A DNA stretch of 64,000 bases. Origin: Fragilaria crotonensis. Taxonomy: Eukaryota > Bacillariophyta > Fragilariophyceae > Fragilariales > Fragilariaceae. Positions 405 through 57,818 of the stretch are shown here, piece by piece. The stretch is taken from NCBI GenBank assembly GCA_022925895.1, contig JAKSYS010000034.1, positions 62,001-126,000 on the forward strand. Direction: 5' to 3'. The notes below the pieces were generated by a model that was not told the DNA's origin, made no database searches, and saw nothing but the letters and a program-made list of their open reading frames with translations. The translations under genes were made by a program, and so were the position numbers. Numbering within the stretch: position 1 is the first letter of the stretch; each line of letters opens with the position of its first letter.

Positions 405-1434
405 GATGTCGTTGATTGGTCAATATTCAGAAATGCTCCGATCCAACAACTTGCTGCAGCGCCCCACGGATATGATAACCACAGCGTTAAGGATCTGCAG
501 AGTGAAATGACAAGGTTTCGATCGTCGCACTTGATTGTAGAAATTGTCGGGGAAAGTTCGGTTCTCAGTTTCATGGTTCATCATTTACGCCGAGGATGCA
601 TCTTAGTATGTCATAGATCATAGATCATAGATCATACATCATGCAATCATATATGCATAGTATGTATGTATCATATGCTACACTAATCACTAATATGCTC
701 TTCATCGTTTTTGATTCAACTGGAAAGTCGCAGTTCGTACGCAGCATAACGCCAGAGTAACGGGATTTAGGATTTACGCGCACTGAGTTTTGAGTTTGGA
801 GGGTTGATGAATGCGTGCGTTTCTCCTCTCTGCTCGCATTTGTATGTTAGTATGTATACCAGGTAAAAGTAGTACTATAGCAGGAATACATGCCCTGTTC
901 TGTTTTACAAGTCTATGCATACCAAGTACTACTACTTGTACAATTTATGTGCACGCGATACGCATGGCACAAGTACTGGACTAGGGGATTACTGCATACT
1001 CGGAGACTCTTATTAGCTCGGAGCTCGGAGTACGGACGGACAACAGGAGTACTGGGTACGGAGTACTCCAGTACTGTTCTTTACTCGCATCTTGGTATCC
1101 TTGCAAATTTGGCATTTTGGAGTGTGCTTCTCCAACTTGCAAACGGCGTAGAGTGAGTACGAAGTACGAGTACCTGTGTACCTGGTACCTGTACTGTCCC
1201 AAGTCCCAACGACGTACTAGCATATAATCCTATCCCTAACATGCTTTTTGCTTCGTCCGTCAATTAACCGATCAACGGTCATAGCAACGAGTTTGATGAA
1301 AAAACGAAAAACGACGAGCACATTGGCACTCGTTCACACACACTACAACGTTGCTCGCCGGCATTGGACAAGGATCCTGCTCTCGAGCAACATCATCACG
1401 TTATTCAATAAGCATTTACATCTAAGGCCTGAAT
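405..1434. other. Intergenic region with a GTAC-rich island
   Basis: No gene seen. It lies between the divergent coiled-coil gene and the golgin, so it should hold both promoters. From about 870 to 1225 the sequence is crowded with GTAC: about a dozen copies occur in some 200 bases around 1018-1215, several inside palindromes such as GGAGTACTCC and CAGTACTG. A short 7-bp tandem repeat lies at 612-636. Confidence 0.6.
612..636. repeat. Short tandem repeat (CATAGAT)n
   Basis: About 3.5 copies of the 7-bp unit catagat, followed by related AT-rich catat/tatgtatg sequence to about 670. Confidence 0.7.
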
Positions 1435-4400
1435 ATGTCGAGCGGTGAGGTAAGAATCATGTTTGATAATATCCGAATCGAATCGTGTGCATTGTAGCGT
1501 GCGTCACTCACGATGAAAGGATCTCTCGCATCGCTCGTTCGTCCTTTATAGGATCAGCCAGGCCGATTTTCCGGATTCGGAGGCTTTGGCAGTCTCAAAA
1601 ATATGGGTGAATCGATGCGCAAGCAAGCGGAAGAACTGGCCAAGACGGCAGCCTCCCAGGTTAGTGATATTAACTCCAAGCTGGCGACGCCTGCGTCGAA
1701 ACCGACTGGCAATGGCGACGATCTGTTGACAACCCCAGCGATTGCCGCCACGCCTTTGGCACCCATGAAGTCGCCAGAAAATATTTCGAAGGAGGAATTG
1801 TTGGATGTCTTGCAAAAAATGAACAAGAAGGTCAAAGCCTTGACAGCCCTGCGTACGCAACTAGCGGACAGGGTCAAGGCGGCAGAAGTCGATAAAGAGC
1901 GGTTGATGAAACTTATGACTGACGAGATATTGGGTGGAGAAGTTGCAATCCAAGAGGGGCAGGATCCTGTGGAACAGCTACAGAAGGCTTGGTATCAAGT
2001 AGATGAACGAAACTCGTTGGCGCTGCAAGAATTACAAGCGGAGTACAAAACGGTGACCTTGCAATGTAAGGAGGAAGTAGATCAAGTAAAAAGAGCAGCA
2101 GAAGCAGAGGCTCAAGCGCAGGTGGATAGAATTAGAGCTGATGTGGCCGCGGAAACCCTTGCAAACGGCAATGAAGCCTGGGAAGTTATGCGTGAGCAGT
2201 TGGCGAAGCGCCACCAAGAGGAGGCGCAGCTACTGCGCAAAGAATTACATGAACAGTACGACGTCCAACTGGCGCAAAAAGAGGAAGAATTCAATGTGCG
2301 ACTTGCAGAAACTGTTGAAATGACTCGCACTGAAATGAAGGAGAGACTTGGGGCTCAGCGTTCAGAAAATCCTTTAGAGTCGATTGCAGAGGTTGAAGCC
2401 CTCAAAGCTCAGCACGCAGAGGAGATGGCAAAGTTGAAGCAGGCAGCTGCAGCCCAGTTGCAAGGTCTCAAGAAGAAGATTGCAGCAGCTCGTTCGGCCG
2501 AGATTGAAAAAATTAAGAAGGAGACAATGGATGCAAAGGACGCTGAAACAGCAGCAAAGGTTGGAGAACTCACCAAACGCTACGAAGACCAACTGGAGAC
2601 TCTTCGAAATGAATTGGCAGCAGTATCCAGAACCTCCCACTGAAGAAGAAATGGAGCGGCTAAAGGTCGAGCTGCAATCCACTCATAGGAGGAGCTGGAG
2701 TCTGTGAAGCAACGGATTGCGCAATCTCTCGGGGAGACCCAACAAGAAACGTTGGAAGAACTACGTTTGCAGCGCGAGCTTGAGCTACGAAGTGTGAAAG
2801 CAGAGATGCTGGCACTGTCTGATGCTCAGATCCATGAGGCTCGAATCGATGCTGAGAATGATTTCAATGCCAAGTTAGAGAAACTGCGAGAAAAGCATGC
2901 TGATGAGCTGGATCGAATCTCTTCTGCCTCAGAGGAGCTCCTTACAGGTGTCAGGGATGAAAATTCGTTGTTGATAGATCGTATCAAAGAAATGGAGATC
3001 ACTGTAGACGCTTGCCGAGCAGAAATCGATCGAAACAATGAACTATATGAACAGAACCTCGAGGCAATGCAATCACGCGTTACCTCCCAACTTGACTCGC
3101 ACGCGCACGAGTTACGAATGCGGCTTGAATCCGAGTTTGAAGAAAGGTTACGAGAATACCAGTCTCAGGCCGCCAACGAGGGAAAGGTGCAGCTTGATGA
3201 GGCAACTTGCCGGTACCAAGAAGAAATGGAAGCCCTTCGAAAGAGTGCTGAGCACGAAAAAGATCAGCTTCGCCGCGAGCTAGAAATTGAGTTCGAAGCG
3301 AATGCGGAAAGGCACCGAGCTGATGCTGCGGCGAAGCTTCAATCTGCAGTGGCTCAAGCTGTTCGTGAGGTGACGGAAACAGCGGAACAAGTCAAGGCCG
3401 CATTTGTTCTGGAGAATGAGGTGAAGCTCAACGTGTTGAAAGAAGAAAGTGACGCTGCATTGCACGAAGCCACCCAAAAGCCGAATCAAAGGTTGCTGAG
3501 CAACTTCGCGCCCTTCGTGAGGAGCACGCGGTACAATTGAAAGAGATGCAGAATAAGGAGAACGCGTTACGCGAGGAGCTTCGCGCTGCAGCGGAGGCAG
3601 ATGCGAATGTTGGCCAGGCCGCTGAACTGCATAGGCAGGAAATCGAAGCACTTCAACTGAGTCATGCCCAAGAGATGGAAAACCTTCGCATCAGTTTGGA
3701 AAGTGCTTTTAATGATGCGATGGAAAATCTCAAAGCCGACGCAGCTGCCAATATCGAGAATGTGCTCAGTCAAGCGCGACAAGAGGCCGCGCAAGCCGCG
3801 GAAGCACTGAAGACAGTATTGGAGGAAGAGAAGGATGCAAAAGTAAAGAGTATTACGCTAGAAAGCGAAGTTGCAATTTTAAATGCGGTCAAGCAAGAAA
3901 AAGCTAAAGCTGCTGAGCAGCTTGAGATTCTACGCGCAGCTCTGTCCAAAGATCTGGAAGACATGCAGTCAACCGCGAAGGCTTTGGATGCTGACCTTCG
4001 ATCATCCACGCTTCGCGAGCAGGCACTTCTGAGTGAGCTAAATGACCTGAAGGCTAGGATTGCTGCTGCTGAAGAAGACAGAAAGGCACTTGCGGAAGCC
4101 GCACAGAGCGGTGAATCGTCGAGCAAGATGTTGGAGGAGCGGTTGGCATCGCAGCGTGCTTCTTTCGAGGCGTCGATGTCCGCTCTGAAGGAACAACACA
4201 ACATTGATAAGCAGCAATCGTTGGAGCGAGAACAAGAATTGATACGCGCCAAGGAGGAACTCGAAAATGAAGCTGAGCACTCACGCCAGAAGATTGTACA
4301 GCTTGAAATCGCCATTGATTCTACTCGAAAATCGCTGGCGATTCTCGAGGATGAGTTCGACGCCCAAACTGAGAATCACAAGGGAAAGTTGGCGGCGATT

Positions 4401-7400
4401 GTTGAAAACCATTCCTCCGAAATCCAGACACTCAAAGAGGATCACATCCAGATTCAAACCGCCCACGCTGCAAAACTTGAAGAGACTGTGTCGGCTACAG
4501 AAGAAAGAATAACTCAGCTGCAAACCTTACTCGAAGACGGCGCCAACGCTGTTCAGAATATCAAGGAACAACACGAATCCGAGATGAAGGCATTAAAAGA
4601 AGCTCATGCAAGTGAGCTGAACGATGCTCGAAAGCTTATCGATGAGCGCGAAGAACATCTCCAGCATCTAAGTTCGCAAGCGGCTACTTGGAAAGACACT
4701 CATTCCCAGTTGCAATCCAAGTTAGATGAAGCACAAAATCGGTCAGAGGAACTGGAGCGGGAATTGCTCGATCTTAGAAGGGCTGTCGATGAAGGCAACG
4801 CAACCGTCGATATGCTGAAGGGGCAATATGTGTCCCAGAGAGAAGAATTGACTCAGCAATACGAAGCCGAGCTGAACAAAGCTAAAGTGCTAGCTGATGA
4901 ACGCGAGAACAGTCTCCGACAGCTCATTGCGGAAGCTGCAATCGGAAATGAGAGTTATGCTGTTGTTGCAGCTGAGTTGGAAAGCGCCCGCAACAGGCTG
5001 ACTGAGCTAGAAGATTCGTCACGTGAAGAAAAGCGGTCTCTGACTCTTCAGCTGGAGACACTCAAAGCTGAGAAAAGTGCCGCGACCGAAGCGTTATTAG
5101 AAGCTGCAAGTCGAGAGGAAGTTTTTCTTTCTCAGCATCAAGAGGCTATTGCAGGACTTGAACAACAGCTCGAGAACGCGAGGCAGCAGTTTTCTGAGCG
5201 CGAAATGGCGCTGCGAGAACGTATGGATCGTGCGGTAGAGGAGTCTCAGTCTGCTGTGCAAAAGTTATCTGAAGAAGCTGACAAGCTGAAGGAAACCATT
5301 GCAACAATGAAGGCCGAACATGAAGAGGCGCTTAGCCACCAGGAACGATCGATATCGCGATCACTTGTTGACAACGAGAGCCAACTGGCGGAAGCACTAT
5401 GTACTGTCGAGAAAGAGAAGGAAAGTGCCCTCGAGGCCTTGAAGCACGACTATGAATCGAAGCTCACTGATGCGCGTGACAAGCAAACGAAGGCCGTCGA
5501 GATAGTAAAGAAGCTGAAAGCCGCGACTGCAGCCAAATTGCAAGGAATCGAGAGAGAAAGAATGGCCGAGAAATCCAGTTTTGAAGAGCAGATCTCGAAT
5601 TTAGAAAGCACTTTGAGATCTGATCATGAATCTCATATCGCCATTCTGATGGAAGATCATGCTACTTTGACAAAGGAGTGGGAGGCAAAGCTAGCTGAAA
5701 GAGAAATGGAGGTCGAAGATTCACTTCAGAAGGCGAGGGATGATTGGGAAACGCAACGTCTGCAAATTGAGAGTGAACATGCAGAGAAAATATCAACACT
5801 GGAAGAAGCGCTTGAGGCAGCAAATCTCCGGCTGCAGGATGCGACACTTGTTTCCCCGGAGGAAATGGAGCTAAAGCTTGAAGCAAAGGCCAACGATATT
5901 CGCGCGCAAGTGACGACTCAATTGACCGCAATGGCTGATACTCATGCTCAGGAACTTGAACGCGAGCGTTCGAATGCTCAAGAAATCCTTCGGCAGCTCA
6001 AGATGCAACATGAAGAAGCAGTGCTCAGACTTGAATCCGATAAAGGACGTGTCTTGGAAGAATCGAAGCAAGAACTGGAGTCTCGTCTTCAAGAACTTGC
6101 GTTGAAGCACAATGAGGAAATGCAAGGCCTGCAGGAGAGACTGGCTGCCCATGTCGATGACTTGAAGCGCCATTTCATGGAAAAGGTCCAGGCCGCTGAC
6201 ATCCAACACGCCGACGAAGTAAAATCTTTGTCAGAACAGTTATTTGCGAGAGAGGACCAACTTGCAAAGATTGCGCGCCAAATCAATGAAAAGAACAATG
6301 AATATGCAACATTGGAAAAGCAGCATGAAGCGCTTCAAACGAAATTCAGCTCGGACGTCGTGGTGAAGCAAGCTCTTCAGAAGAAGATCGAAGAGTTACA
6401 GAAGCAACTAACCGAGTCGACCGCAAATGGTGCAGCAGCGGCACAGTCATTGTTGCAGCAACAAGAGCGACTTGAAACAAAGGCTGCACTTGACGAAGAA
6501 TTGAAACGCACAGTCCTCGAGCGTGACACGAACACGAACAAAATCGAAGAGCTCCAGGGCAAGCTCGAAGCACTGGGTGCGAATTTGAACATTACCCTCG
6601 ACGAGAAGAATGAAGTGGAATCAGAACTGCAAAGTGCTTCTAGGAAAGCTGCAAAGTTAGACTTGGCCGAAAGTGAGCTGAATTCCTTAAGAGACCAGCT
6701 CAACAAGTTGAAGCTCGAGCAAACGAAGAGCAATAGCCTCCTCGAGAAGTTGCAGGCGGAAAAGGAAGCGAATACCCGGAACCACGGCCAAAGAACTGCC
6801 CTTGTGGGCATGCTTGAAGAGCAGCTGGCAGATTTGAACGAGAAGAACTCTGAGCTAAACGCTAAACTCGAAGCCGCCAAGTACGACTTAAGCGCACGAG
6901 AGGAAGATATCCAGTCGCTGCAGGACGCGCTCGAAAATGCAAAAAAAGGAATGGCCGACGCTCAAAATGCTCGCAAGCAAGCCAACGAATCACTTTCTTC
7001 AGCCCAGAAAGGAGCAGATGCGAAGAAGGGGAAAATGATTGAAAGTTTGCAAAGAGAAATCCAGTCGCTTCAACAACAAATGGCGAAGAAGAGCTGCTGC
7101 TCAAAAACTGATCCAGCAAAGGAAGCCGAGTGCATCGAGTTAAGAAAGACCACTAAAGCACTGCAGCAAAGAGGTGGACAAGGGTAGTTTAAGTGACCGT
7201 CGCATCTTCGAATTGGCGGCCCAGCAAAGTAATCGAGAATCTGTTGCTGTCTCAGAGATCGAGGTGCGCGACCAGATGGTTGACAAATTAACCGAAAAAC
7301 TGGAGATCCAAGATGTCGACCTCGCTGAAGCCGAGTACAACGTCAAGCATTACGAAAACCAAGTGGAAGAACTCTGTCGCATTCGAAGGCGCGAGGATGT

Positions 7401-7719
7401 CAACTTGGACTATCTCAAAAGCATTGTGGTGCAATATCTCTCCAAGCCGCCGGGATCAAGTGAGCGAGAAGCTCTCCTCCCGGTTCTCGCCACGCTTCTT
7501 CAATTTGATGCGAATGATTATAGAACTATCGAGGACGGCAAGAATAAGCTCAGTTGGTGGGGAAGTGTGGCCCCAATTCTTATTACGCCCCCGACACAGA
7601 ATACGCCAGCACAGGAGCAGGCGCCCCTGCTCTCGGCCGAGATTTCGGTTTCCAGGACGACGAGTGCGGACGCTTCTCTAAATCAAGAACGATCTCGGAC
7701 AACATCCCTAGAATTCTAA
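1435..7719 (+). CDS. GRIP-domain golgin, very long coiled coil
   Basis: A large golgin of about 2,070 residues, expected to tether vesicles at the trans-Golgi. Nearly the whole length is Glu/Gln/Lys/Leu heptad-rich coiled coil. The C-terminus (about 7390-7530) is a clear GRIP domain: VNLDYLKSIVVQYL followed by SEREALLPVLATLLQF, including the Tyr that in known GRIP domains contacts ARL1-GTP. The start is a small first exon at 1435-1449 (MSSGE), a GTAAGA donor at 1450 and an acceptor AG at 1550-1551; exon 2 continues in frame as DQPGRFSGFGGFGSL. A second phase-0 intron of 66 bp at 2623-2688 (gtatcc to catag) explains an apparent break there. Two further breaks, at the A-run 3476-3479 and near 7160, are not introns; the first is cured by one extra A (giving EATQKAESKVAEQL). 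ARL1, the usual recruiter of GRIP golgins, is encoded at 44.6-45.4 kb. Confidence 0.85.
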
Positions 7720-7764
7720 CAATAATGACATTACAATTTCCTTACATTACATTTACAACAACTG

Positions 7765-17482: not shown

Positions 17483-18395
17483 GATGAGAATTTGAACCGG
17501 AACAAAGGAGCGAGTACAAGTACAAGTACCGCCGGAACGAGATGATTGATTGACGACAAAGTATGCTGATGTACAGTATGATATGGGCTAGTACATTGTA
17601 CTTGTACTTTGAAATATCATTCATGGATACAGTGACTGAAAATGAACTCGTGACATAATCCTATTGGTTTACTCGGGAGCTATTTGACATGGATACATCT
17701 GTAAAGGTGCACAGATTCACCCAATTTTGGATAAGTCTGTGCACCCTGCACAGATGTATCCATGTCAAATAGCTCCTGAGCGGTCATTAGCGGACATTGC
17801 GGACATTGGGCCCTAACCGGTGGTATGCATTTTGCTGCTTTTTGGACAGAAATGGTCCGATTGGACCATTGGTCACAAATAGCTTCAGGGTGTGTGATGC
17901 TCTCATAGTATACCTAGTATGTATGTATTATACTCGAATACACGCCACATTTGCGCATTGGTGGTTGTAAGGTGTACAGGTACATGTACTGGGGTAAAGT
18001 ACAATACCGAATTACGAAAATTGATATCATAATTATTCTGCTTACAACAGTACCATCCCCTACTATCCACTATAAATGTCAAGTAAACATGATACAGGAT
18101 ACAGGATGTTCTATGTTCACACACGCAATCATGCTTCTCATTTTTGGTACACAGTACACAGACTTGCAGACCTCTGGCACGCTGGGGGCTGCGATGACAG
18201 CGTCCTCACGTACAGCACTGTGAACGAGTAATGTAGTACAATACCATTAACTGTTAAGAGCACAACTACCGGTAGATGTCATACCTACCCAGAGATGGCG
18301 TTGTCTGCAGTTCTCACTTCACCCAACCGTCACCATTGAAATACTAACACAAACTCGTAAAAATTCTATCAGCGTCGCTTCTCAATCATCAACGG
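17483..18395. other. Gene-free region with foldback and GTAC motifs
   Basis: Apart from the 109-bp foldback, no gene is seen. GTAC clusters occur at about 17510-17610 and 17915-18010. A small near-palindrome (aatggtccgattggaccatt) lies at 17851-17870. Confidence 0.5.
17672..17780. repeat. 109-bp foldback (near-perfect inverted repeat)
   Basis: Left arm 17672-17716 and right arm 17735-17780 are almost perfectly complementary over about 45 bases (ctcgggagctatttgacatg against its reverse complement), with a short loop. The transcript would form one long hairpin. It is probably a palindromic MITE or the tip of a Harbinger-derived element. Confidence 0.8.
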
Positions 18396-31671: not shown

Positions 31672-32383
31672 AAAAGGTTATGGCATGCGGCAATTTGAGA
31701 AATGAAGACCTTTTTTGAGGACCACGAACAGAATAGAAAGTACGGGTACTCCAGTATCCAGTACACCCGGTATCAGTATGCATAGCCACCTGGTGCCGGC
31801 ACCGTTGTCTGGTACTCCAGTACAGTAGTTCTACTGATTAGTTGTCCACCGGACGTTCCGGCAAATGGCGATTTCAGAAAGGAGGGAAGATAGCTAAATT
31901 TTTGAAGTAACATGTTTTCTTGGGATGTCTACCTTTTATGGGACAAGTATGCAACTACGTTTTCTACACATGGGTGTGGCAAATACACTATGAATAAAAA
32001 AAGTATATACATAATAATGGTACTGTACCTGGTACTACTAGTTCTCTACTAGAGGTGTACGGATCTAAAAGCCATATGTAAATTGTGCCCCGAGTAGACT
32101 TGAAGGTAGGAGGAGTAAAATTCTATTGAACACGTCAAATAATACTCGTATCGAATAAACATGTGTATCCGGTGCATACGAATACGTCGTTGGATAGTTC
32201 ATGCGCTCTCGAAGTCATTAAGGCACTCACGGGTCTCTCAGCATTGTACTAGTACCAGGTTGCGAATATATAGTCATGATACCACGTTTAGTGTCAATAT
32301 GTATGACGTAGCAAAGCGCCATCCAGGTTCGCAACACACGGGGGTCGTTACCGACCAGAGTGTTATAGACGAGATTCGTCTGC
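31672..32383. other. Gene-free region with GTAC islands
   Basis: No gene seen. GTAC-rich stretches at 31739-31835 and 32015-32060 include ggtactccagtacag and cctggtactactag. Confidence 0.6.
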
Positions 32384-33424: not shown

Positions 33425-35303
33425 GGTTTATCACTGAGAACTCACAAGGATTAGAAAACGACATCGTATGCTCGATTGGAGAAACGTACGCAACCGTTTG
33501 ATGTGAACTTACAAAGGTTGAATGAACGGTGATCACAGCGATGCGGATGTTAAGAAAAATGATGTAAATGTAGTGTTCGCTTGTGGAAGTTCAGGAACTA
33601 ATTCTTGTGCCCTGTTATCGTTTTGATTCCTTCCGCCTCCCAGGGGTGACCTCTGACGTATGCGTTTGCTGCAACGTACATGTGACATCGTGCATGCTCA
33701 GCCCTAAGTGTTTTCGCTCCCAAATGTGCTCTCTTGTTGACGTCACTCACAAATTGCCCTACCTTTTGGATGTAGAACATCTTTGACTGGGACTAGATTC
33801 CGTAGTGACGTTGCCAAATCTCGTTATTGTTGTCAGCTTGACGTCGATCCTTCCGGAACGACGCGTTGCTTGCGTAAGATGTGCATAATACTTAGTCGGA
33901 GTACGCACTAGCTTCCGACTGGTTTTGCATACTCGCGTAGCTCGTAGAACTCATTTGTACATTTTGTATGCATATGCTACTACAAGTACCGGTAGCAGAA
34001 GCTACAAGGTACCGGTAGACGACAGTCCGCTGTGGTTCAATCGTGGTGGTACAGTACGAGTACTACCGGTAGCTAGTAGAGTCACCTGAGGGTTTGGAGA
34101 TTTGATTGTTCATAATTCATAATTCATAATTCATATAATACATGAATGTATGCTCGAAGGATAACATAGAGTGACAATTACAATGAACAATGAAATCCGA
34201 ACTCCGAGCTCTGAACTCCGAGTACCGAGTACTGGTACTAAGTATGGTACTCGAGTACTGGAGTACTCCAGTACTGGCTTACCAACAATCTCTGCATACC
34301 AGCAAGTAGTACTAGTACCACATTCACTCATTTTTCTTTTGACTGTTCTGTGCACTAGTGATGTGGTGGTTGTCAATGTGCCATGACAAGGGACCTCACA
34401 CTTGACTCAAGGTTGTTGTGTCCATTCAAAATCTAGTGTATTGCACTCCTGATGTGGAAGATTTTACTTGGTTCTTGTCTTCCCAATCAGTCCCTTTACA
34501 ATTCTTTCTCCTTCCATTGGTTTGAAAGTAGCTTCAGAACATGCTTTGTCATATTTTTGCATGGCAAGAAATCACATGTATTTCAATACCTCTGGTGATA
34601 CAATTCAAGGCATTCTTTCTTGCAATTGTAAATGCTCTCACAAGATATGCTGTCACATTCTCTTGGCAACCAATCCCCATGCACAATACCTCAATCCTCT
34701 GTTAAGGTTTGATAAGGATGCCTTCAGGAGAAACTTGTGGTGTGGTGGGCGAATAGCTCAAGAATAGTCCTCTCATCTGCTCTGAATTGCTCATTGATCA
34801 ACTCAGCGTACAAGTAAAGAAGGAGATTGAACACCTTTGTTCCTCTCGCATGATGTCCTCTGTTAATTGCATTCTAAGTGCTGGCAGCAATAAAGCCTTG
34901 AACAACATATCTTCCACATTTTGTAAGAGACAGGCCTCATGGATTTCTTGTCTGCAGCTGCCCGCAGCTCTGGTTTAATCAGCAGTTGGTGTTGCTTCAA
35001 TCAACAGTGGGTTAAACTTGTCTGCGGTGGTGATGACAGCAGGCAGGTGCACAGGCTGATTTGATTGATATATTTTTATCTATACAAGCAATCAAATCAC
35101 TTCCCAATTCTATTCGGATCAGATATGATCAAAAAGAAGTCCAGCGCAGGTGCTCTTCTTAGGACCAATGAGATTGTAATTTTGATGAGCGAGTCAGCCT
35201 GCAATGCCTTTTTCTGGTGCCCGCTTGTCAAATCTTTGATAGCCCCTTTACAAGGATTTTTGTCAGAGTACGCGCACCACCTTCATTCCATTAACAGTAT
35301 AGC
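33425..35303. other. 1.9-kb gene-free region with GTAC islands
   Basis: No gene seen. GTAC-rich stretches occur at 33895-34075 and 34200-34320 (for example ggagtactccagtactgg). A (CATAATT)n repeat lies at 34111-34135. 34390-35060 is AT-rich with short unsupported frames. Confidence 0.55.
34111..34135. repeat. Short tandem repeat (CATAATT)n
   Basis: Three and a half copies of the 7-bp unit cataatt. Confidence 0.7.
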
Positions 35304-35613
35304 TACACCGAGTACAGTATTTAGTCTGGTCCAGACTATTGTGCAACATGCCATTTTTTGACCCCAAACAAATATTAGTCTGGATAGGCCAATTTGCAAA
35401 TATTGGCGCACGGATACCAGAGGCATCAGGAAACACATCTACGATTTGTCTTATCAGCGATGCAGAAGCCACATGAAAGAATCCGAATTTTCCTGATGCA
35501 CTTTCGGCAAAAATAAGTTTCAAGCATATATCATAGTAGTCTGGACCACATTATTTTGGAATTCAGACTATTTGCCCATCCAGACTATATGTTCATATAC
35601 TGTACTCGGTGTA
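35304..35613. mobile_element. 306-bp MITE with TA target duplication
   Basis: Perfect 15-bp inverted ends CACCGAGTACAGTAT at 35306-35320 and 35597-35611 are each flanked by TA (35304-35305 and 35612-35613), as in Tc1/mariner-type elements. Inside the ends are TAGTCTGG/CCAGACTA motifs in both orientations (35321-35338, 35533-35542, 35565-35588), including the palindrome tagtctggtccagacta. No coding capacity. Confidence 0.65.
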
Positions 35614-38070: not shown

Positions 38071-38774
38071 TTATGTAATTGTTCTTTTGTTGTCTCCACT
38101 TTTTCGTTTCGTACTCGTTGAGTACAAGTATGAAGTATGAATACTTCTGCGTTTATGTACTCAAGTACACATGTACTGAGATACGATACTTGTACGACGC
38201 TCCTACATACATTCAAGCAATACGACGTCGTACCTAGTTGTACTCAAAATTGTATTAAAATCATATACGTTCGTATTAGATCAGAAATGTTACCAAAGTA
38301 ACGTTACAGCAGTAGATTTTCCGCGACCGATACTATGTGCCACGAGACGCTCTACGTAAATCTAAAATACCCCTATGAGGACAGCAGTATTCTCACGCGT
38401 AATTCCTATTGAATTTAATGGTATTTTCAATGATTCAGTAACGCTGTGGGTACTCAAAAATAGTGCAGAAATGTTACCTTCAGCCCTAAGTAGAACGTTA
38501 CTCGAAGACACTCTCGCGGTGGTACTTTTGAGTGCTCGCAAACCAGCGACAGTACCAGCAACTCCATTCAACAATCATGCTGATGGCTGGTTTCCTCCCA
38601 TGCTGGACCAGCCAAAGAACCAGCACCTATCATTTGTACTTGTCTCTCTTATGGAGTTGATTCATGAACAGGAGGCAGGTGGATCCTCGGAAGGGGAGCT
38701 CGTTCCGGAATAGCACAGTACTTGTTGAGTACTGTACTATTTTACAGATCTCACGCCTCGAATGCACTGACGAG
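38071..38774. other. Gene-free region with a GTAC island
   Basis: GTAC-rich at 38105-38240. The following 500 bases have only short unsupported frames. Confidence 0.5.
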
Positions 38775-39625: not shown

Positions 39626-40044
39626 TGGTTACTGTGTGAAGGTCGTTCCACGAACATAAACATAAATAAATTCATGTGGTCTACTGGCTACTGGGCACTT
39701 CGCACTTGCCATGAAACTGGACAGTCTTGTGCGATGCCTTGCTGTAGATTTTCGCGTGCGTACTTTCTATACCGGACGCTACGGTAACATCCTGCGTTAT
39801 TATATTTCCTAGTTACTCTCGTAGTATGTTGCTATGTTTGTTCGGAAGAACTCCAGTGCTCAGTCCTTGTAGTACAAGTACTACGGAAGTATTGTACTGA
39901 GTAAAACTGAAATACTGCAGTTCCTTATTACTGGGGTACCTGATACTGTAGCCTCTGTGGAGGTATGGTACAGTAGTGTGTGGACAGTCTCTACACGTGC
40001 TCACCTAGACGATATGCATATCCGACGGACGCCACGACGACTGA
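39626..40044. other. Gene-free region with a GTAC island
   Basis: GTAC-rich at about 39850-39975 (ttgtagtacaagtactacgg). It ends at the TGA target duplication of the Harbinger element (40042-40044). Confidence 0.6.
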
Positions 40045-43815: not shown

Positions 43816-43863
43816 TGATGCTCGTCGTTTTCACTTAATCTGTTCCAAGTTCCAAGCCTAACC

Positions 43864-44478: not shown

Positions 44479-44582
44479 GTGGTAGGATGATTGCGCAGGT
44501 AGTCTTTTAAAAAGCATCGGTACGGGATCTTTCAGCCTAGATTATTAGAGACAAAACAACGGTACTAAAAGTAGTAAGCACC

Positions 44583-45364: not shown

Positions 45365-46129
45365 GATATTGTTGTATTCTGATGTCGTGAGTACTTGTAT
45401 CGGCGGAAGGTGGTGTGTTGGCTGATTTGAACACAGAAGTAGAGTACGACTGAGACAAAGGTAAAACCAAAACTGCCAACATCGCGAAGGCAATCGCACC
45501 TGAGAGCACGAGGAGCGAGGAGGCGGTGCGGCCATACACAGCATACAGCCCACTGGCACAGCAAGTAAATCTACATACTCGTTGGAGCCGCAGGGTTAGA
45601 ACAGCCTTCGACGTCGAACGAGTACAAGTAGAGTCGAAGGAATCGAGCGATGAGAATTTTGAATCTACGGTACCAGTACAGTAGAGGAGCTGCTGCTGCT
45701 CACCTTTGGACTCCAGCATACTGGAGTACGAGGACGAGTTATGTATCTACCAGGTATGTTTGATATAAAAGGGCAACGTACAGTATCGGTAAGCGCCAAT
45801 ACTACAGTATCGTAGTAAGTACATTTTACGAGCATGTTATTGCATGTCCTATGCCCTATACCCTATACCCTATACCTCTATGCCTATGCCTATGCCTATG
45901 CACTATCCCTCTCTGCACAATCCTTTTTGAAGGTTTCATAGGCCGATATCGTATCAAAGTGGTAAAGGAAGCAATCGTCGAATAAAGAGCACTCTATTGA
46001 GTATCAACTTTGTGAATGAATGAAGGTGTCCAGTAGACTCTAGCTTATGCTTTTTTCCATTTTGTCAACAAAATACTTGAAATGCAATCTAGCTAGAAAA
46101 AGTGAATGGACACTTGCCAACAAAATATC
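45365..46129. other. Gene-free region with a GTAC island and short repeats
   Basis: GTAC-rich at about 45615-45825, likely spanning the ARL1 promoter. A (CCCTATA)n/(TGCCTA)n simple repeat follows at 45842-45906. Confidence 0.6.
45842..45906. repeat. Simple repeats (CCCTATA)n and (TGCCTA)n
   Basis: Three copies of ccctata run into four copies of tgccta. Confidence 0.75.
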
Positions 46130-47740: not shown

Positions 47741-49321
47741 TTGAAGTTGGTGGAGCGTGAAACAACACAATTGCTCTGCTTTCTGCTTGCCTAATGCTGA
47801 TCACAACAATATGCTGGTGAATCGAGTGCAGATGTCAGAAGAACGTATGCAAAAGATTTTCTATCATTTACGAAAGTAGTACTAGCTAGTAGTAGTGCTA
47901 CAGTATGCGAATAGAGACTGAATAGAGTACCAGCAGGTCCAGCATACATATTCATGTACGACAGCATGGTACTGGAGTATCATATATGATTTCGTACTAG
48001 TACCAGGTACAACAGTAGAGGACACGTACGAGGTCCTGTCGTGAGAAAAAGGTTACACCAAATGTACAAGTAGTGAGTAGCCAGGTACTCGTAGTAGTCA
48101 GTACCGTTGCTTCTCAAAATCAAAAATCACACAAGGAAAAGAAGGTGATGTCACTCACAACGTCAGCAGAAATCCATCGTGACCAGCGACGAGAGGCAGC
48201 GAATCCTAAATTTCGGAGGCCTCATGACGTCAGTAAAGGTTCGAATATGGATTCTGTAATATTGCCTATCTCTGAGGTCTACTGTAGTACCGTCTAGTAG
48301 TACTGTAGATTCTGTACTATTGTCTATTTATTGCAACCGCCTTTCTTGTTTCTTTTCATTGAAATACGAATTTCTCTTTAATAATTGAAGACACTTTTTT
48401 TAACGTTGTTAAGTCGGCCATTTGTTCAACTATTACTACGGGCAACACGAAACTTGACATTGACAATGGCCAACCACCGGCATCAAGTACTCAACATATG
48501 AACACCAATCCTTAAAATGTATGCATAGAATCCTATTCTCTATTCACCATCATGACACAAATTGATGTGGGTGGCAAAACATACTTGGCCAGTTTTTGAG
48601 TACCCAAGCAAATCCATGTGTTGAAGGCCCTCCAATTTTGGTCCACACAGAGTGAACAAGTGTAGGTGGTGGTTTGCTACTTGCACACTTTGCATCGCCC
48701 TTTGCAGTGAATGAGGAAGTTGTTCAGTTCCATCGCGAGACTCTTCTTCCTCCTGGTAGGTGTTAGGTTTGTGCCGAAGTACCTGCCCTGGGATTCCGCA
48801 GCCCCCCGTAGTTCTTGTAGCTATTGAACAATTCTGGTGAGCGACTGATTCATGCATCCTGTTCATTCAACCTCCTGCGGCATCAAATATGCACATGATC
48901 AAAGGTGTTAATGATGAGCTCCTCACTGAGTGAGGTGTAGAAGTCCTTTTGGTTCTCCTGTGCGCCGGAGCAGCACTGAATATCATGAGCAAGCCAGCAT
49001 GTATCTACCACTAGTACAATAATTCCAAAGATTGTTAAGTTCACTTGCATCCTAAAGAAATTTTTTGCAGGTGTTGTCAGCACTAGTTTCGATCCAGCTT
49101 TGTGCCGCCAGCCAGACATCGATCTGAACTCTGAACCGGTGGTGTCCCTCTGGGCGGGGGGCGCGTTTTTTTCCTTTATTCACGACTCAGCACGTATCGC
49201 CGGACCTTCCTGCGTCCGGAGTCCGGCGTCCGTCATCGCCCAGCTATCGTTTAAGATTACAACATTCAATGACGCTCATGAAGCCATTCGACAAAACTGC
49301 CGTTGTTAGTGTTAGTGTATC
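47741..49321. other. 1.6-kb gene-free region with a GTAC island
   Basis: GTAC-rich at 47875-48105 and 48280-48320. 48350-49100 has only short unsupported frames. Confidence 0.55.
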
Positions 49322-51592: not shown

Positions 51593-52309
51593 CGTGTAAT
51601 AATCTGACAATTGACGCGACAACACGCTCTTCCTGATTTCTTTCTGTAATGATGGATGTATTAACATTCGACACCGAAGTGTTCAGGTCGACTCCCTCTG
51701 TCAAGAGTCAAGAGTCCGACTTGCATACTGTGTGACAGTAGATGAATTGTACAATGGGAGGAGAAGTACTGTATTACTACCAGGTACGCCGAGTACTGAA
51801 ACTTGTACTCCTGTAGGTTTCTGGACCTGGTTGACATTGGGCACCACTCTAGTACTGTACTACTGCGAGAGTGCTTGGCTACTGAGGCGTCTGGTATGTC
51901 TCGTACGAAATCTGGTTCTTCATGGTCGTACTCCATACATTAGTGCAGTCGACGTATATTTGTACCGCTACTCTAGTACTGGTACTATGGTACTGGAGTA
52001 CTCGAAGTGCTGTGTACATGTATCATAGCACGATATCGCGATATCTCTGTCAAGTATGCAAGGACAGACGCCCGACCCGTGAAACACGTCATCTGATGAT
52101 GATGATGAAAACACATCGAATCTTTCCGATGCTCGTTACGATACCCTCATCCCTCGATCTACATCTACCTCCTACCAGCAGCCTCACCACCTCATCACGT
52201 GGCGGTAATCATAACTTATACTTCATACCTCAGATAAGCTTGCATAAAAGCACAATTGACAGAGTGTAACGCAGAGCATTATTCAAAGGCCAGCAAAGCA
52301 AGTTTTTGA
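51593..52309. other. Bidirectional promoter region with a GTAC island
   Basis: Lies between the divergent PEX19 and SDR genes. GTAC-rich at 51765-52020 (for example agtactggtactatggtact). No gene seen. Confidence 0.6.
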
Positions 52310-52324
52310 TTGTTTAACCAAAGA

Positions 52325-53521
52325 ATGGCGGTAGAATCCTTCACCATGAGACAACCACAGCAATCATGCATCGTTCTTCTCTTATTCTTTCTGGTCCGCA
52401 CGGCGGCATTTGCGGCCACAACAACTACTGTGGATATCGCTGTCGCTCCTGCCGTCGTTCCCACTAGGGAGATCGTGTCGCGAGTGGCAGTGACAGGAGC
52501 AACGGGTCGTACCGGTCGTTTGGTAGTACAAGAGTTGTTGGACAGGGGTGTGCAAGTTGTGGCCATGGTGCGAGATTTGGAAAAGGCAAAGGAAGTCTTG
52601 GAATTCACTGAGGATGATACAACACCAGAACAACAGCCGCGATTGATCGTTACAAAGTGTGATCTTACGTCCGAGACCCAAATAGCCGCCTCGTTGCAAA
52701 ATTGCGATGCTGCCATATGGTGCTCCACTGGCTTTTCTGAATCTCAACCAGTGGTGATCGACAATGATCCACCGTTCGTCCAAACGATCAAACGTTGGAT
52801 GGGGATTGAACCACCCAAAAGTACGGAACCACCAACTCGGACCAGCATTGATGCCGTTGGCATCCCCGCATTGGCAAAATGCTTCATGGACAAAGATGGC
52901 GCTGATTGCGATTATCCCAAGGTAGTCATGCTCAGTTCGGCTGGTGTCACGCGTCCGTCGTGGGACGACGCCAAGAAAGCGCGCTTTCCGGGAAGTGCGG
53001 ACATTCCCATTGTTCGATTGAACCCATTTGGGATTTTGGAAATCAAGGCCGAATCGGAAAACAAGTTGCGACAGAGTGGAGCACCCTACTGCATTGTTCG
53101 ACCAGCGGGCCTTAACGACAAGGATTGGCCGGCCGGATCGCGGCCTGTCTTCTCTCAAGGCGATGTGGCTGTCGGTCGCATCAATCGGAAGGATGTTGCG
53201 CGAATCCTGGCCGACGTCCTCTCGACCAAAGAAGCTACAGGGAAAACATTTGAAGCGATTACGTTGGCTGGATATCCACCGGCAGATTCGATCGCTCCTG
53301 CATTGAAGCGGCTCAAGGCGGATGCAGATGGGCTTCCTGACGATGACGCCTTAGCTGCGACCTATGTGACAATGCAGCAATTACTACCGGGAGAAAAGCA
53401 GGATTCTGCAAACATTGCGTTGGGACAAACCTACGAACAGATGGACAAGAACGAGGAAGGTCGTTTCGGCCCTCGAGGAGCTGAGAAGGTGGAGCAAGTG
53501 CTCTTGAAGCCTACGTCTTAA
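52325..53521 (+). CDS. Atypical SDR/NAD(P)-binding protein, probably plastid-targeted
   Basis: A Rossmann-fold protein of about 398 residues. The start MAVESFTMRQPQQSC plus IVLLLFFLVRTAAFAATTT is a signal peptide ending in A-A-F|A, close to the diatom plastid motif; an ATG at 52310 five codons upstream is an alternative. The nucleotide-binding motif is VAVTGATGRTGRLVVQELLD (TGxxGxxG), followed by VVAMVRDLEKAKEVLEF, KVVMLSSAGVTRPSW, PYCIVRPAGLNDKDWPAGSR and DVAVGRINRKDVARILADVL. The TGATGxTG motif and the lack of a YxxxK triad place it with atypical NmrA/TIC62-like SDRs, which in plants bind pigment- or redox-linked partners. Its substrate cannot be told from sequence. Confidence 0.75.
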   Translation: MAVESFTMRQPQQSCIVLLLFFLVRTAAFAATTTTVDIAVAPAVVPTREIVSRVAVTGATGRTGRLVVQELLDRGVQVVAMVRDLEKAKEVLEFTEDDTTPEQQPRLIVTKCDLTSETQIAASLQNCDAAIWCSTGFSESQPVVIDNDPPFVQTIKRWMGIEPPKSTEPPTRTSIDAVGIPALAKCFMDKDGADCDYPKVVMLSSAGVTRPSWDDAKKARFPGSADIPIVRLNPFGILEIKAESENKLRQSGAPYCIVRPAGLNDKDWPAGSRPVFSQGDVAVGRINRKDVARILADVLSTKEATGKTFEAITLAGYPPADSIAPALKRLKADADGLPDDDALAATYVTMQQLLPGEKQDSANIALGQTYEQMDKNEEGRFGPRGAEKVEQVLLKPTS

Positions 53522-53892: not shown

Positions 53893-55341
53893 ATGCCGAC
53901 ATCGACAACTCTGACCTCCAAGAGCAACTTGGTTTCAGTAGGTGCGTATAACTTAACTTCGGTCGTTTCTATGCTTGTTTCACCATCATTTCCATTCTTC
54001 TCCATCGGCATCCTTCTCCTTCTCTTGCAAGACGTTACAAGCATGAGCACCACAACAAAGTCTGTACTTCCCCGACGCACCTTCTATCGCCGACCGCTGC
54101 CACCGTCGTGCACAGCACTTAGTTCTCCACAAGGTCGTCAACAATTTGAATCGTCCATGCGGCACAAGGGTTGCAAAAGTTACTTTGTTCTGGCGGAACA
54201 ATTCACCACCCAGTCAGAACCCGCCTATTGTGGCATTACATCGCTCGTCATGGTCCTCAATGCCCTTGCCGTGGATCCAAGACGACTTTGGAAAGGAAAT
54301 TGGAGATGGTACCACGAAGAGTTGTTAAACTGTTGCATTGACCTCGAGGAAATCAAGGTCTCGGGGATCACATTGAATGTATTTGCGTGTCTAGCCAGAT
54401 GCCAAGGACTCAATGTGGAAAAGTACTTTGCGCAGGAGAGCAATGTAGATGACTTTCGTCGAACCGTCGAGTTGGCGTGTGTCGAGAATGACGCAGAGGA
54501 CGATCACACGGACTACGCAGACCCCTTGTTGGTGGTATCCTACGATCGAGGAGTGTTAAAACAGACTGGTACCGGCCATTTTTCACCGATTGCAGCCTAC
54601 GATCCACCTTCGGATCAAGTTCTCATTCTAGATACCGCCAGGTTCAAATACGGTGCTCATTGGGTGCCACTTCCACTCATTTTTGAAGCAATGCTACCTG
54701 TGGACCAAGACACTGGAAAGTCGAGAGGGTATGCGTTGCTGTCCTATGTCAATGACGACGTGGCGTCAATCATGCCGATATCAATCCTCCTGCGATCGTC
54801 CCAGGCTCAAAATCCTCTCCGCCAGCGTTACAAGCAATTCCTGGTAGACCATGACTATGATGTTACCTGGGACCAAGTACTTGACTACTGGACCAGGGGT
54901 GGAAAAGATCCCATGTACATTTGGGAAATGATGGAAGCGCAGTTTGCTCCCACAGAGAAGGACGCTGCGGATGCCGTGATTGCCGTTCAAACGTTGCTCA
55001 AGGCGCTGGTGCCACAACCACACAAACCGTCACATACGACGTGTTTACCCACCGATCACGAAGCCCATCCATGCCGTCCCAATTGCAATCGCGTTGTTCG
55101 TCTGACAGCAGAAGAAGCTATCTATATCGTCTACCTAGCGTCACTTTCCAAAGACCGCCGCGAAGAAATAGTCTACTCTACAGACGCAGCCGTGAACGAG
55201 GTGGCGACTGACGAATCCCGACAACAATTGTTAGTGGAAGCTAATTTGGTCCGGTATGCAATTGACAACAGCGATGAGATGGTGGAGGAGGCAGACCGCA
55301 TGGGGTCCCATCACGGCGTTTCGGAAGATGACATAAACTAA
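53893..55341 (+). CDS. PCS: Phytochelatin synthase
   Basis: A papain-like transpeptidase that builds phytochelatins from glutathione for binding Cd and other metals. The catalytic triad is visible: Cys113 in EPAYCGITSLVMVLNALAVD, His229 in TGTGHFSPIAAYD and Asp247 in VLILDTARFKYGAHWVPL. WYHEELLNCCIDLEEIKVSG and ITLNVFACLARCQGL are also family blocks. The N-terminus before MSTTTKSVLP (54043) is hydrophobic (FSIGILLLLLQDVTS), so either a signal-anchor form from 53893 or a soluble form from 54043 is made. The C-terminus has a small Cys cluster (TTCLPTD, HPCRPNCNR), as expected for the metal-sensing region of eukaryotic enzymes. Intronless. Confidence 0.92.
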   Translation: MPTSTTLTSKSNLVSVGAYNLTSVVSMLVSPSFPFFSIGILLLLLQDVTSMSTTTKSVLPRRTFYRRPLPPSCTALSSPQGRQQFESSMRHKGCKSYFVLAEQFTTQSEPAYCGITSLVMVLNALAVDPRRLWKGNWRWYHEELLNCCIDLEEIKVSGITLNVFACLARCQGLNVEKYFAQESNVDDFRRTVELACVENDAEDDHTDYADPLLVVSYDRGVLKQTGTGHFSPIAAYDPPSDQVLILDTARFKYGAHWVPLPLIFEAMLPVDQDTGKSRGYALLSYVNDDVASIMPISILLRSSQAQNPLRQRYKQFLVDHDYDVTWDQVLDYWTRGGKDPMYIWEMMEAQFAPTEKDAADAVIAVQTLLKALVPQPHKPSHTTCLPTDHEAHPCRPNCNRVVRLTAEEAIYIVYLASLSKDRREEIVYSTDAAVNEVATDESRQQLLVEANLVRYAIDNSDEMVEEADRMGSHHGVSEDDIN

Positions 55342-55437
55342 GTGCATGGATGAACATTCTAATTATCAGCAAACCACGAGTGTTCGTGCTAAGACATGTA
55401 TCATTAGGAATCAGTGCGCTGCATCACGTTCAAAGGA

Positions 55438-57312
55438 TTAAACCAGAAGATTTTGCTTCTTGATGGCCCCCAGGACCTTCATAGCTTCTTCACGAGATAT
55501 GGTACCTGTACCGTCCATGTCGAGGGCATTCAGCAATTCTTGCACCACTCGCTTGAGGTCCTCATGACTCGCTCGGTTGCCCAGAACCTCAGACGCCACT
55601 AGAGACATGGTTTGAAGCTCCTCGTGAGTTGCCACGTGATCTAACATATCGGTGGCAACGAATCGTGCAACCATCATTTCAATTGGAGTAATGGTACCGT
55701 CACGACTCAGATCTGCCACGCCCATTACCGATTCCACCACCAACTCGGCAATATCGTCACCAAACACTTGAGCCGCTCGGACTTTGACTTCCTCTTGGGT
55801 CAGGACTCCATCTCCATCCGTGTCGATATCAGCGAACGATCCCATATCCAACCACATGAGCGCCGCAAACATCTCAATCATGGCAACCTTGGCTGGCTTT
55901 CCACACTCATCGTCCACGTGCACATGATTCTGCTCGGCCCATTCCAAGAGTGGTACATGATTATCGATACCTTCGAAGAACTGTGCGGGCAACGTGGTTA
56001 AATACGATTTATTGGGATCAAAGGCCACTCCATTGATTGTGAGTATCTTGCACGATTCATTGTCGTAATTGACTTTATCACAATGGTGCAAGTATCCGCC
56101 TCGTGCCTCGGGAGGATCACATCGAATACCGGCTCTCGATTCGGTGATCATGTCCTCAATCACTTTGCCAGGAAGCGCCAAAGCCACCATGTTGGTGCTA
56201 AAGGCCAGCTCGGCCTTTAAATCACTCCATGTGAACCATTCCTGCTCCGGGGGATATGTTTTGTTACCACGAATGGAGCCAGCATTGGTAATTGCCAAAG
56301 ATGACCGCATGGCCATTCGCAACAGAGTGCACAAAATGGTGCTGCCAGTTGTATTCCCAAGTCGATTGTTTTCTGTCGAAAACGGAACTGGGTCTGAAGT
56401 TTTGTCCAGAATCCAGTCCTGAAATCGGAATATCTTGGCTCGTTCCAACTCGTGAAGGACTCGTTCGTGACCTTCTACAATGGCAGCGATCTTTGGGCAC
56501 TTTTGATACGTGTTTGTGGGGATCATCTGAACATCGACCACAGGTTGTTCAGCGACCGTTTGGTCCTCTCGAATATCCCACTTGAAATCAATGATAGCGG
56601 TATGCATGGCATCATGTCCCGTCTTAATGATGCGACTACCATTGTGCACTTCATCGTATATTTCGTGATCGTGGCCACCGATGACAATTGGAAAAACATG
56701 TCCACCATATCTGTTTGCGAAATCGCGATCTTCTGCGATTCGTTGATGAGTGAGTGGGATCACAAGGTCCAGATCCTGCGGTACTTCACCCTGCAGAAAC
56801 ACGTCCGTTGCTTCCAAGATCGGTTGAATTGATGCGCCACCAAAGGCATCGGGTCGATACAAGCCCGGGTCATCTGTCAACAATCCCAACAATCCCACCC
56901 GTTTCGTGAAATTCTCTCCAGAATCACTGTCATTCGACACCACAACGACATTGTACGGACTCGTGACGGCACCTAATTTCTCATCCAAATCACGCATATT
57001 CGTGTTGATCCAACAAAAATTGGATTGCGCAATACGCTGCGCAATCGCATCGGATGGAACATCTGCTTCATGGTTACCAATGCTCGCATGAGTAAAGCCA
57101 CAATGGTTCATGACATCCACCATGCCGCGACCCTTGTCCAAACTCGAAAGGAGGGAGGGACCCAAAAAGTCTCCCGCCATGACCACAAGAGTCACATGCG
57201 CTTGGTTCGTGTGCTCATCGACCAAGGTTTTGAACGAAGGGAAGTTATCTAATTCATACACATCGTTCACTTGAATGATGCGGAGCCACAGGAATCTTTC
57301 TTTTTCCGTCAT
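55438..57312 (-). CDS. 5'-nucleotidase-like metallophosphatase with C-terminal EF hands
   Basis: A protein of about 624 residues. The N-terminal two-metal phosphoesterase domain has IIQVNDVYELDNFPSF, VMAGDFLGPSLL, HASIGNHEADVP, PLTHQRIAEDRDF and IVIGGHDHEIYDE. The middle is the 5'-nucleotidase C-terminal domain (NAGSIRGNKTYPPEQEWF). The end carries three EF-hand loops: DIDTDGDGVLTQEE, DLSRDGTITPIEM and DMDGTGTISREEA. In well-studied 5'-nucleotidases the first motif is DxH; here it is NDVYEL, with Tyr in place of the metal His. Calcium control of a nucleotide or sugar-nucleotide hydrolase is the simplest reading. The start at 57312 (MTEKERF) is chosen because the upstream frame is low-complexity. 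No signal peptide is seen. Confidence 0.82.
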   Translation of the reverse strand: MTEKERFLWLRIIQVNDVYELDNFPSFKTLVDEHTNQAHVTLVVMAGDFLGPSLLSSLDKGRGMVDVMNHCGFTHASIGNHEADVPSDAIAQRIAQSNFCWINTNMRDLDEKLGAVTSPYNVVVVSNDSDSGENFTKRVGLLGLLTDDPGLYRPDAFGGASIQPILEATDVFLQGEVPQDLDLVIPLTHQRIAEDRDFANRYGGHVFPIVIGGHDHEIYDEVHNGSRIIKTGHDAMHTAIIDFKWDIREDQTVAEQPVVDVQMIPTNTYQKCPKIAAIVEGHERVLHELERAKIFRFQDWILDKTSDPVPFSTENNRLGNTTGSTILCTLLRMAMRSSLAITNAGSIRGNKTYPPEQEWFTWSDLKAELAFSTNMVALALPGKVIEDMITESRAGIRCDPPEARGGYLHHCDKVNYDNESCKILTINGVAFDPNKSYLTTLPAQFFEGIDNHVPLLEWAEQNHVHVDDECGKPAKVAMIEMFAALMWLDMGSFADIDTDGDGVLTQEEVKVRAAQVFGDDIAELVVESVMGVADLSRDGTITPIEMMVARFVATDMLDHVATHEELQTMSLVASEVLGNRASHEDLKRVVQELLNALDMDGTGTISREEAMKVLGAIKKQNLLV

Positions 57313-57818
57313 GATACTCCGTGTTTTGTTATTGTTGTTGTAAGTGGTGTGTGTGTAGTATTGTGGAGTTGTCTTTGAATACAACGTGATGTTGTGATCG
57401 ACAAGCTGAGATTATTACGGAAAGGCTCGTCTCGGCGTGGCGTGAAAAAGCGTAAAACTTTCGGCGATGGAATCCATGTTTCGTTCTTGTCTGGTGTGAA
57501 TCTTGTCTTGTACTAGTACTCGAGTACTCGGGTGCGATACAGGAGCCACGATTACCTACACTGTACTACACGTCGTACGTCGCACAAGGATCTGTCGCAA
57601 CAGCAGGAATGATCCGATTCGAATTTCGAATCCATACTTACGGTAGAAGGACTACACTATCATACATATGCATATGACAATTGTCATAACTAGAAGAGTT
57701 CCATATCGTGCGAACGAACGCCTTTATCGAAGGATAGAATAGAGACATACACGTCGCATCTATCTCATATTAGTTGAGAACAACTGGGAACTGGAAGGGG
57801 ATCATTGGATGGCATTCC
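57313..57818. other. Gene-free region with a GTAC cluster
   Basis: GTAC motifs at about 57509-57580 (gtactagtactcgagtactc). No gene seen. Confidence 0.55.

Follow-up and report, generated by a model that had tools for sequence, protein, structure and literature searches.

The excision footprint of the transposon Sleeping Beauty reads TAC(A/T)GTA (PMC3432063), and footprints of Stowaway elements in a beta-amylase intron of the Triticeae read TACTCC...AGTA and TACT...AGTA; Stowaway footprints, composed of 2-4 plus 1-2 nucleotides (nt), attain 6 nt (PMC1925063). Footprints measure 0-4 base pairs (bp) for Passer (PMC9976928) and 2-4 nt for Tc1/mariner elements (PMC7913693). A different precedent for short words repeated upstream of a gene comes from Plasmodium, where PfAP2-G binds a GTAC core, and the promoter of PfAP2-G itself has eight such cores within 1.3 kb (PMC7083873); all of these statements follow the available parts of the papers cited. 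Here we describe clusters of the word GTAC, termed GTAC islands, in a 64-kb stretch of Fragilaria crotonensis DNA (contig JAKSYS010000034.1, positions 62,001 to 126,000; the whole stretch is called the window) and in the 62.1-Mb genome of 881 contigs to which it belongs.

The islands are real, noncoding and genome-wide. We consider it highly probable that they are palimpsests of excision footprints from DNA transposons that target TA, each footprint being a unit TA-x-TA with a short filler x. The kind of event, a TA-target transposon footprint, is identified in one family, that with the filler CC(A/T)GG (CCWGG). In our view the islands most probably consist of superimposed excision scars in front of genes, with new ones still being formed, and are no motif in the usual sense.

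GTAC is over-represented in noncoding DNA

Words were counted in the window and in a 264-kb sample that was chosen blind to GTAC and consists of the window and the first 100 kb of each of contigs C12 and C23. Coding and noncoding DNA were separated with our own hidden Markov map, which overlooked an ARF gene, at least in its first exon. In the window, GTAC was the most over-represented tetramer, with 304 copies against 140.7 expected from dinucleotides. In the noncoding DNA of the sample it ranked first among the 256 tetramers (970 copies against 473 expected; 7.15 per kb). A reading of the window made earlier from the letters alone (the sequence-only reading) had proposed this comparison with a dinucleotide null, and spaced patterns in the whole genome agree with its outcome: GTACN2GTAC occurs 12,699 times against 3,004 for the reversed pattern, and GTACN20GTAC 4,808 times against 2,608 for its control. 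AGTACT was counted 35,777 times genome-wide, against 27,806 for the control.

The sequence-only reading had named 11 intergenic ranges as far richer in GTAC than chance allows. All 11 are noncoding and hold 5-14 copies against 0.16-0.56 expected; at 1018-1215, where about twelve copies had been reported and less than one expected, we counted 12 against 0.44 (window dinucleotides). Expectations drawn from the dinucleotides of each island itself reduce the excess to 1.7- to 6-fold (12 against 2.34 at 1018-1215). With a second-order model the noncoding enrichment of GTAC falls to 1.09-fold, because the excess resides in GTA and TAC, the two most over-represented noncoding trinucleotides. CCCTAA-type words, perhaps telomere-like repeats, also were strongly enriched in the noncoding DNA of the first 100 kb of C12 and of C23, and they were masked in later counts.

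The claim that GTAC is absent from coding DNA did not hold. The coding part of the sample contains 324 copies (2.52 per kb) against a dinucleotide expectation of 200; amino acids and codon usage together predict 320.8, so that a codon-level excess is absent. A bias toward GTAC in mutation generally or in gene conversion, one of the options raised from the sequence alone, would fit the prominence of GTA and TAC among noncoding trinucleotides. We regard it as extremely unlikely, given that coding GTAC stands at the codon-usage rate, that GTA is the rarest valine codon, that intron-like gaps carry 3.52 GTAC per kb (10 sites in 21 gaps), and that the excess upstream of genes lies in GTAC (9.62 against 4.89 per kb), other GTA showing scarcely any (13.73 against 12.32 per kb).

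A short list of fillers between TA dinucleotides

Units of the form TA-x-TA were counted in the 264-kb sample against a second-order Markov model and were enriched for fillers of 3 to 6 nt. Among noncoding fillers of 3 nt, CAG/CTG was observed 125 times against 33.6 expected and TCA/TGA 58 times against 17.6. At 4 nt the enriched fillers were CAAG (46 against 10.9), CCGG (35 against 1.7), TGCA (28 against 3.2), CCAG (30 against 7.1) and CTAG (17 against 2.7), and the longer fillers CCAGG (27 against 1.4) and CTCCAG (19 against 0.5) brought the enrichment up to about 38-fold. The main list is CWG, TSA, CAAG, CCGG, TGCA, CCWGG and CTCCAG. Coding DNA was flat for these fillers.

A vocabulary of 16 fillers was picked by hand on the same 264 kb, and a hold-out and the allelic indels described below serve as its independent tests. 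A list learned on C12 and C23 predicted the noncoding DNA of the window (138 units against 38.6 expected), its coding DNA giving 10 against 7.5; fillers not on the learned list reached a ratio of 1.3. The anchor also is particular: 15 fillers of TA reach 8 copies and a 4-fold excess, against 1 to 9 for 11 other anchors, and the anchors that score 9, AC and GT, both overlap GTAC. Fillers whose ends are complementary at two or more positions were enriched 4.0-, 2.78- and 3.12-fold at 4, 5 and 6 nt (1.1-, 1.18- and 0.97-fold in coding DNA), as would be expected of remnants of inverted termini. Between 300 and 600 bp upstream of genes the density of units is 7.24 per kb; it is 2.47 downstream and 0.42 in coding DNA.

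Noncoding TA-x-TA units with x of 3 to 6 nt exceed the model by 899 in 264 kb, or about 3.4 per kb. Roughly extrapolated, with three stretches standing for the genome and TA-containing fillers counted twice, this suggests some 2 x 10^5 scars in 62 Mb.

Haplotypes differ by TA plus filler

Searches with the HSF domain gave 77 matches in the genome, which fits the HSF expansion of diatoms described in the available part of PMC4827209, and these led to contig pairs aligning at 94-98%. Two pairs, C58/C416 and C256/C560, were treated as haplotypes on the basis of collinearity and 94-98% identity, and they may be recent duplicates. Over 11.5 kb of aligned noncoding positions, GTAC ranked 19th of 136 words by polymorphic share (0.11, the median of the words being 0.0755); this comparison and a first indel run were made without five alignment pieces that overlap others by 3 to 22 bases. 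Comparison of strains had been suggested from the sequence alone as a check on island turnover, and between these haplotypes GTAC proved no less variable than other words.

Three haplotype comparisons yielded 98 indels in 14 aligned pieces, 35 of them 5-14 bp long. An end repeat of 2-4 nt was carried by 16 of these 35, and in 14 of the 16 it included TA (1.86 expected; 0 of 200,000 simulations reached 14). The first run, on fewer pieces, had given 11 of 13 against 1.41 expected. The longer allele reads TA-x-TA and the shorter TA, and therefore the unit gained or lost is TA plus filler. Single fillers were CTG, CAG, TGA, TCA, TTG, CTCG, CAAG, CTAG and GGTC; paired allelic fillers were CTTG with TCA, CCTGG with CCAGG, and CAAG with CAG. 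Of the 13 first-run fillers, 11 belong to the vocabulary, which was derived from other DNA (2.11 would be expected), and the four added by the fuller run (CTG, CTAG, CAAG and CAG) are, by eye, also in it. What separates the alleles is a short insert between two TA target copies, as in excision footprints.

Slippage at GTAC microhomology had been considered as the cause of these indels. It was replaced because neighboring fillers differ and TA, not GTAC, is their common part.

A transposon-free process of break and repair or microhomology, specific to TA and adding or removing short fillers beside it, would also leave the TA end repeat of the allelic indels, and 3 of 11 indels with at least 4 bases of homology used GTAC, which makes up 2.8% of opportunities. 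Such a process is very unlikely to be the source of the units. The fillers are not random, being drawn from a small list with complementary ends, and one of them equals the termini of an element found at the same site.

An element and its expected scar at one site

That element, E3, is 993 bp long and lies between two TAs in contig C416 (locus L038). Its termini are CCAGG/CCTGG (CCAGGAGGTTCCGG and CCTGGAGGTTCCGG), and 19 of 20 terminal bases form an inverted repeat. The allele with E3 reads CAGATTA-CCAGGAGGTTCCGG...CCGGAACCTCCAGG-TA-CGAGTACTC, with TA duplicated; the other allele (L037) reads CAGATTA-CCAGG-TA-TGAGTACTC, and the flanks differ by single bases alone. The TA-CCAGG-TA of L037 is the footprint that excision of E3 would be expected to leave. 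For CCWGG, then, the filler equals the termini of an element in the same genome, where TACCWGGTA occurs 6,789 times against 597 for the reversed control.

Three further TA-flanked inverted-repeat elements are specific to one haplotype: E1 (2,087 bp), E2 (1,489 bp) and E4 (2,986 bp). E4 lies in L037, is missing at a clean TA in L038, and contains pieces of a pogo-type (DDE_1) transposase, which clear the cut-off at 2.2e-5 and 4.3e-5. Across the genome 28 DDE_1 matches passed the cut-off; among the first eight, the best have open frames of 402 to 725 amino acids (aa), and the genome is thus predicted to encode a TA-target transposase. Two other allelic insertions, of 3.8 kb (L040, about 1500-5305) and 2.5 kb (L042 reverse, 3823-6361), are without the TA and inverted-repeat form.

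A hunt for TA-flanked inverted termini returned 84 pairs for TA (29.8 per million against 3.5-15.2 for seven other dinucleotides); GTAC palindromes and tandem repeats swell this list, which served for picking candidates alone. Two candidates lie in the window:

35304..35613: candidate resident element resembling a miniature inverted-repeat transposable element, TA at both ends, 14/14 terminal inverted repeat CACCGAGTACAGTA
17681..17771: candidate foldback element with flanking TA and 14/14 inverted termini TTTGACATGGATAC

One terminus similar to that of the first candidate was found, at C12:50224.

Islands lie upstream of genes

Islands were called as at least 5 GTAC with neighbors within 45 bp. 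This gave 12 clusters in the window, for which the sequence-only reading had put the number of stretches at fifteen or more, and 32 islands in all, none of which is coding. Upstream positions no more than 1 kb from a start are occupied by 23 of the 32, compared with 44.7% of randomly placed noncoding points (P 0.0017). They are not copies of one repeat, as the sequence-only reading had held: two inter-island BLAST matches were found among the 32, and a genome search with 960-1230, which spans the island at 1018-1215, returned itself alone. The 11 named islands, which together carry 57 footprint-like units, are listed below with their neighboring genes and open reading frames (ORFs).

1018..1215: upstream of the gene at 1552-7716 (+); 12 GTAC and 3 footprint-like units; it contains TACTCCAGTA (1064), TACGAGTA (1165) and TACCTGGTA (1179)
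17510..17610: upstream of the Harbinger-type transposase ORF 16205-16972 (-); 5 footprint-like units
31739..31835: upstream of ORF 29746-31554 (-); TACTCCAGTA twice, TATGCATA and TACAGTA
33895..34075: upstream of the LCIB-type carbonic anhydrase ORF 32384-33424 (-); 7 units, including TACCGGTA three times
34200..34320: also in the upstream region of the LCIB-type ORF; 6 units, including the run TACTCGAGTA-TACTGGAGTA-TACTCCAGTA
38105..38240: downstream of 37727, adjoining 38237-38272; 2 units
39850..39975: upstream of the DDE_Tnp_4 transposase ORF 40258-41697 (+); 5 units
45615..45825: upstream of the ARF gene 45068-45544 (-); 8 units, including TACCAGGTA
47875..48105: upstream of the class-III aminotransferase ORF 46130-47473 (-); 8 units, including TACTGGAGTA and TACCAGGTA
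51765..52020: between the divergent Pex19 (50819-51667, -) and NAD(P)-binding protein (52325-53521, +) genes; 14 GTAC, 7 units
57509..57580: upstream of the 5'-nucleotidase/EF-hand gene 55438-57312 (-); TACTAGTA and TACTCGAGTA

With the ARF gene added to the map, 10 of the 11 are upstream of a gene start, the exception being 38105-38240. The 36 bases at 38237-38272, compared by eye, match those that close an allelic insertion of 2.67 kb in L038 on its right.

GTAC density peaks at 12.7 per kb 300-400 bp upstream of predicted starts, stays near 10 per kb out to 800 bp, and is 3 to 7 per kb near gene ends. Divergent, tandem and convergent intergenic gaps carry 8.96, 6.9 and 4.59 per kb, respectively. 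Each of the three stretches, taken separately, follows the same order: 10.53, 9.59 and 8.42 per kb upstream, 4.87, 6.1 and 5.42 in other noncoding DNA, and 2.03, 2.42 and 3.04 in coding DNA. In 50 of 77 upstream regions, 4 or more GTAC fall within 200 bp; 11.07 such regions would be expected.

This upstream bias is what would be seen if the islands were homotypic clusters of binding sites, many weak and redundant promoter copies serving a GTAC regulator (SBP-like, AP2-like or other), as with PfAP2-G (PMC7083873, available part); the retention of 12-13 of 13 GTAC in comparisons of long terminal repeats (LTRs), given below, also speaks for such sites. Upstream palindrome clusters as a regulator's binding site were our own first reading, given up chiefly as the sites turn over. 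We now consider it unlikely. Between haplotypes GTAC is polymorphic above the word median, in place of the conserved sites that SBP clusters should present, and in repeats not selected by GTAC it was kept at 26 of 57 sites against 26.1 expected (hand sum). Binding sites would, moreover, leave unexplained the TA plus filler units, the fixed list of 3 to 6 nt and the pair of element and scar. The AP2 domain gave no match in the genome at E 0.001 with one control positive, in an exon-by-exon search that can miss split domains. The SBP model had 0 matches in the genome, yet 0 in all 14 control genomes as well. The SBP-type factors that had been suggested from the sequence alone thus find little support: GTAC is not conserved between haplotypes, and the SBP count of Phaeodactylum is listed as 0 in the available part of PMC4827209. 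The literature searches made found no paper on GTAC in diatom promoters, and published passages on diatom and stramenopile motifs and on 6mA lent the regulator model no support.

Further features of the window and of the GTAC-rich DNA were noted. Genes of the window include plastid-type proteins, judged from presequences read by eye, and a phytochelatin synthase gene at 53893-55341 (+). The ORFs at 16205-16972 (-) and 40258-41697 (+) are both Harbinger-type (Plant_tran / DDE_Tnp_4) transposases. The product of ORF 29746-31554 (-) has 602 aa and is without a Pfam match; by eye, its C-terminal part (HLLRDMIVTHV...GHS...YDRR) resembles a tyrosine recombinase, perhaps Crypton-like. A 178-bp unit stands in tandem (4.8 copies) at 38775-39620. 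The densest GTAC block met (L031:380-2001 and L032; C21:50600-54200) is a minisatellite-like stretch of diverged tandem units, with 57 copies in 2 kb in L031.

How excision would build an island, and how well the evidence bears this out

On the excision reading, DNA transposons and their nonautonomous derivatives, at least one with a pogo/DDE_1-type transposase, would insert at TA and duplicate it, mostly in open DNA upstream of genes; this openness may be the cause of the upstream bias. Repair after excision would leave a few terminal element bases between the TAs, turning TA into TA-x-TA with x such as CAG/CTG, TCA/TGA, CAAG/CTTG, CCGG, TGCA, CC(A/T)GG or CTCCAG. Most fillers presumably each belong to an element family. 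In most fillers the first base is C and the last is G, so that a TA flanked by two scars, or by a scar on one side and a suitable base on the other, reads G-TA-C; at TAs that touch no unit, GTAC stands at 623 against 613.8 predicted from its two halves. Successive events at adjacent TAs would accumulate into islands. Of the options raised from the sequence alone, a hypervariable promoter spacer came closest, if given a mutational origin; excision footprints were not among them.

Several points weigh against this reading. The haplotypes were compared without an outgroup, and gain by excision is our interpretation of single indels; away from the E3 site, the direction would be the same. Element and scar were seen together at a single locus. 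Both ends of E3 read CCAGG on one strand, and deletion between these 5-base repeats would therefore give the same product, although it is a less likely source of thousands of copies with A or T at the center. The empty sites of E1, E2 and E4 are clean TAs with no filler. DDE_3 (Tc1 type) had 0 matches in the genome, with three controls positive, and a resident family for the commonest filler, CAG/CTG, was not found in the sequence examined. Fillers of 5-6 nt (CCAGG and CTCCAG) exceed the 0-4 nt given for Tc1/mariner and pogo-type elements in the available parts of PMC9976928, PMC7913693 and PMC1925063. The 16-filler vocabulary covers 351 of 970 noncoding GTAC (19 of 328 in coding DNA), which is descriptive, as the vocabulary was picked on the same data; the remainder would be decayed or rarer scars or background.

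Retention in one LTR family belongs with these points. This retrotransposon (L025-L030; C23, C37 and C42) has LTRs of 387 bp with at least 40 genome matches, about 7 GTAC at fixed places per LTR and about 9 in the adjoining leader. Its loci were picked by a common GTAC pattern, and the three sites per copy biased in this way were removed from the count. The non-seed GTAC were kept at 13 of 13 sites in two comparisons and at 12 of 13 in one (P 0.016-0.048, sites not independent), slightly more than their surroundings, which is a weak hint of some constraint there.

Excision footprints usually are encountered singly. The footprints themselves are known already; as far as can be judged from our searches, none of which aimed at genome-wide footprint surveys, it is their scale and their effect on promoter base composition that are unusual. 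A wider proposal, to which we give somewhat less than even weight, is that excision may be a main author of promoter sequence here, with scars on the order of 10^5 and still being added, GTAC as the signature word of upstream DNA, and an archive from which the element families that jumped, and the times and places of their jumps, could be read. CCWGG and CTCCAG, scars of 5-6 nt whose ends are self-complementary, would then point to TA-target elements whose cuts fall deeper within the termini than those of known Tc1/mariner and pogo elements, with overhangs that anneal to themselves on excision. If this is true, footprints could be counted as fossils, sequence alone would reveal excision activity, promoter preference and repair rules, and the promoter variants supplied by element loss would become measurable. 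Motif finders would call for caution, as the strongest promoter "motif" (GTAC, AGTACT or TACCWGGTA) would pass for a regulator's binding site. The allelic pair of element and scar at the E3 site makes the excision claim directly testable.

Comparison with known systems

The comparisons below rest on the available parts of the papers cited. As in PfAP2-G clusters, GTAC cores are repeated upstream of genes (PMC7083873); unlike there, an AP2 domain was not found here and the sites vary freely between haplotypes. The commonest unit, TA-CAG-TA / TA-CTG-TA, equals the Sleeping Beauty footprint (PMC3432063). Sleeping Beauty, however, is an engineered transposon, whereas here neither a resident family with such termini, in the sequence examined, nor a DDE_3 transposase was found. 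A TA target and inverted termini are shared with pogo/Passer-type (DDE_1) elements, and DDE_1 pieces lie in E4; of the units, those of 3 and 4 nt fall within the footprint lengths given for Tc1/mariner and pogo elements, and CCAGG (5 nt) and CTCCAG (6 nt) are longer (PMC9976928, PMC7913693). TA-CTCCAG-TA equals the Stowaway footprint TACTCC...AGTA when its parts are joined, the joining being ours (PMC1925063). Unlike Stowaway, for which a few footprints in one intron are described (PMC1925063), the footprints proposed here pile up in promoters throughout the genome.

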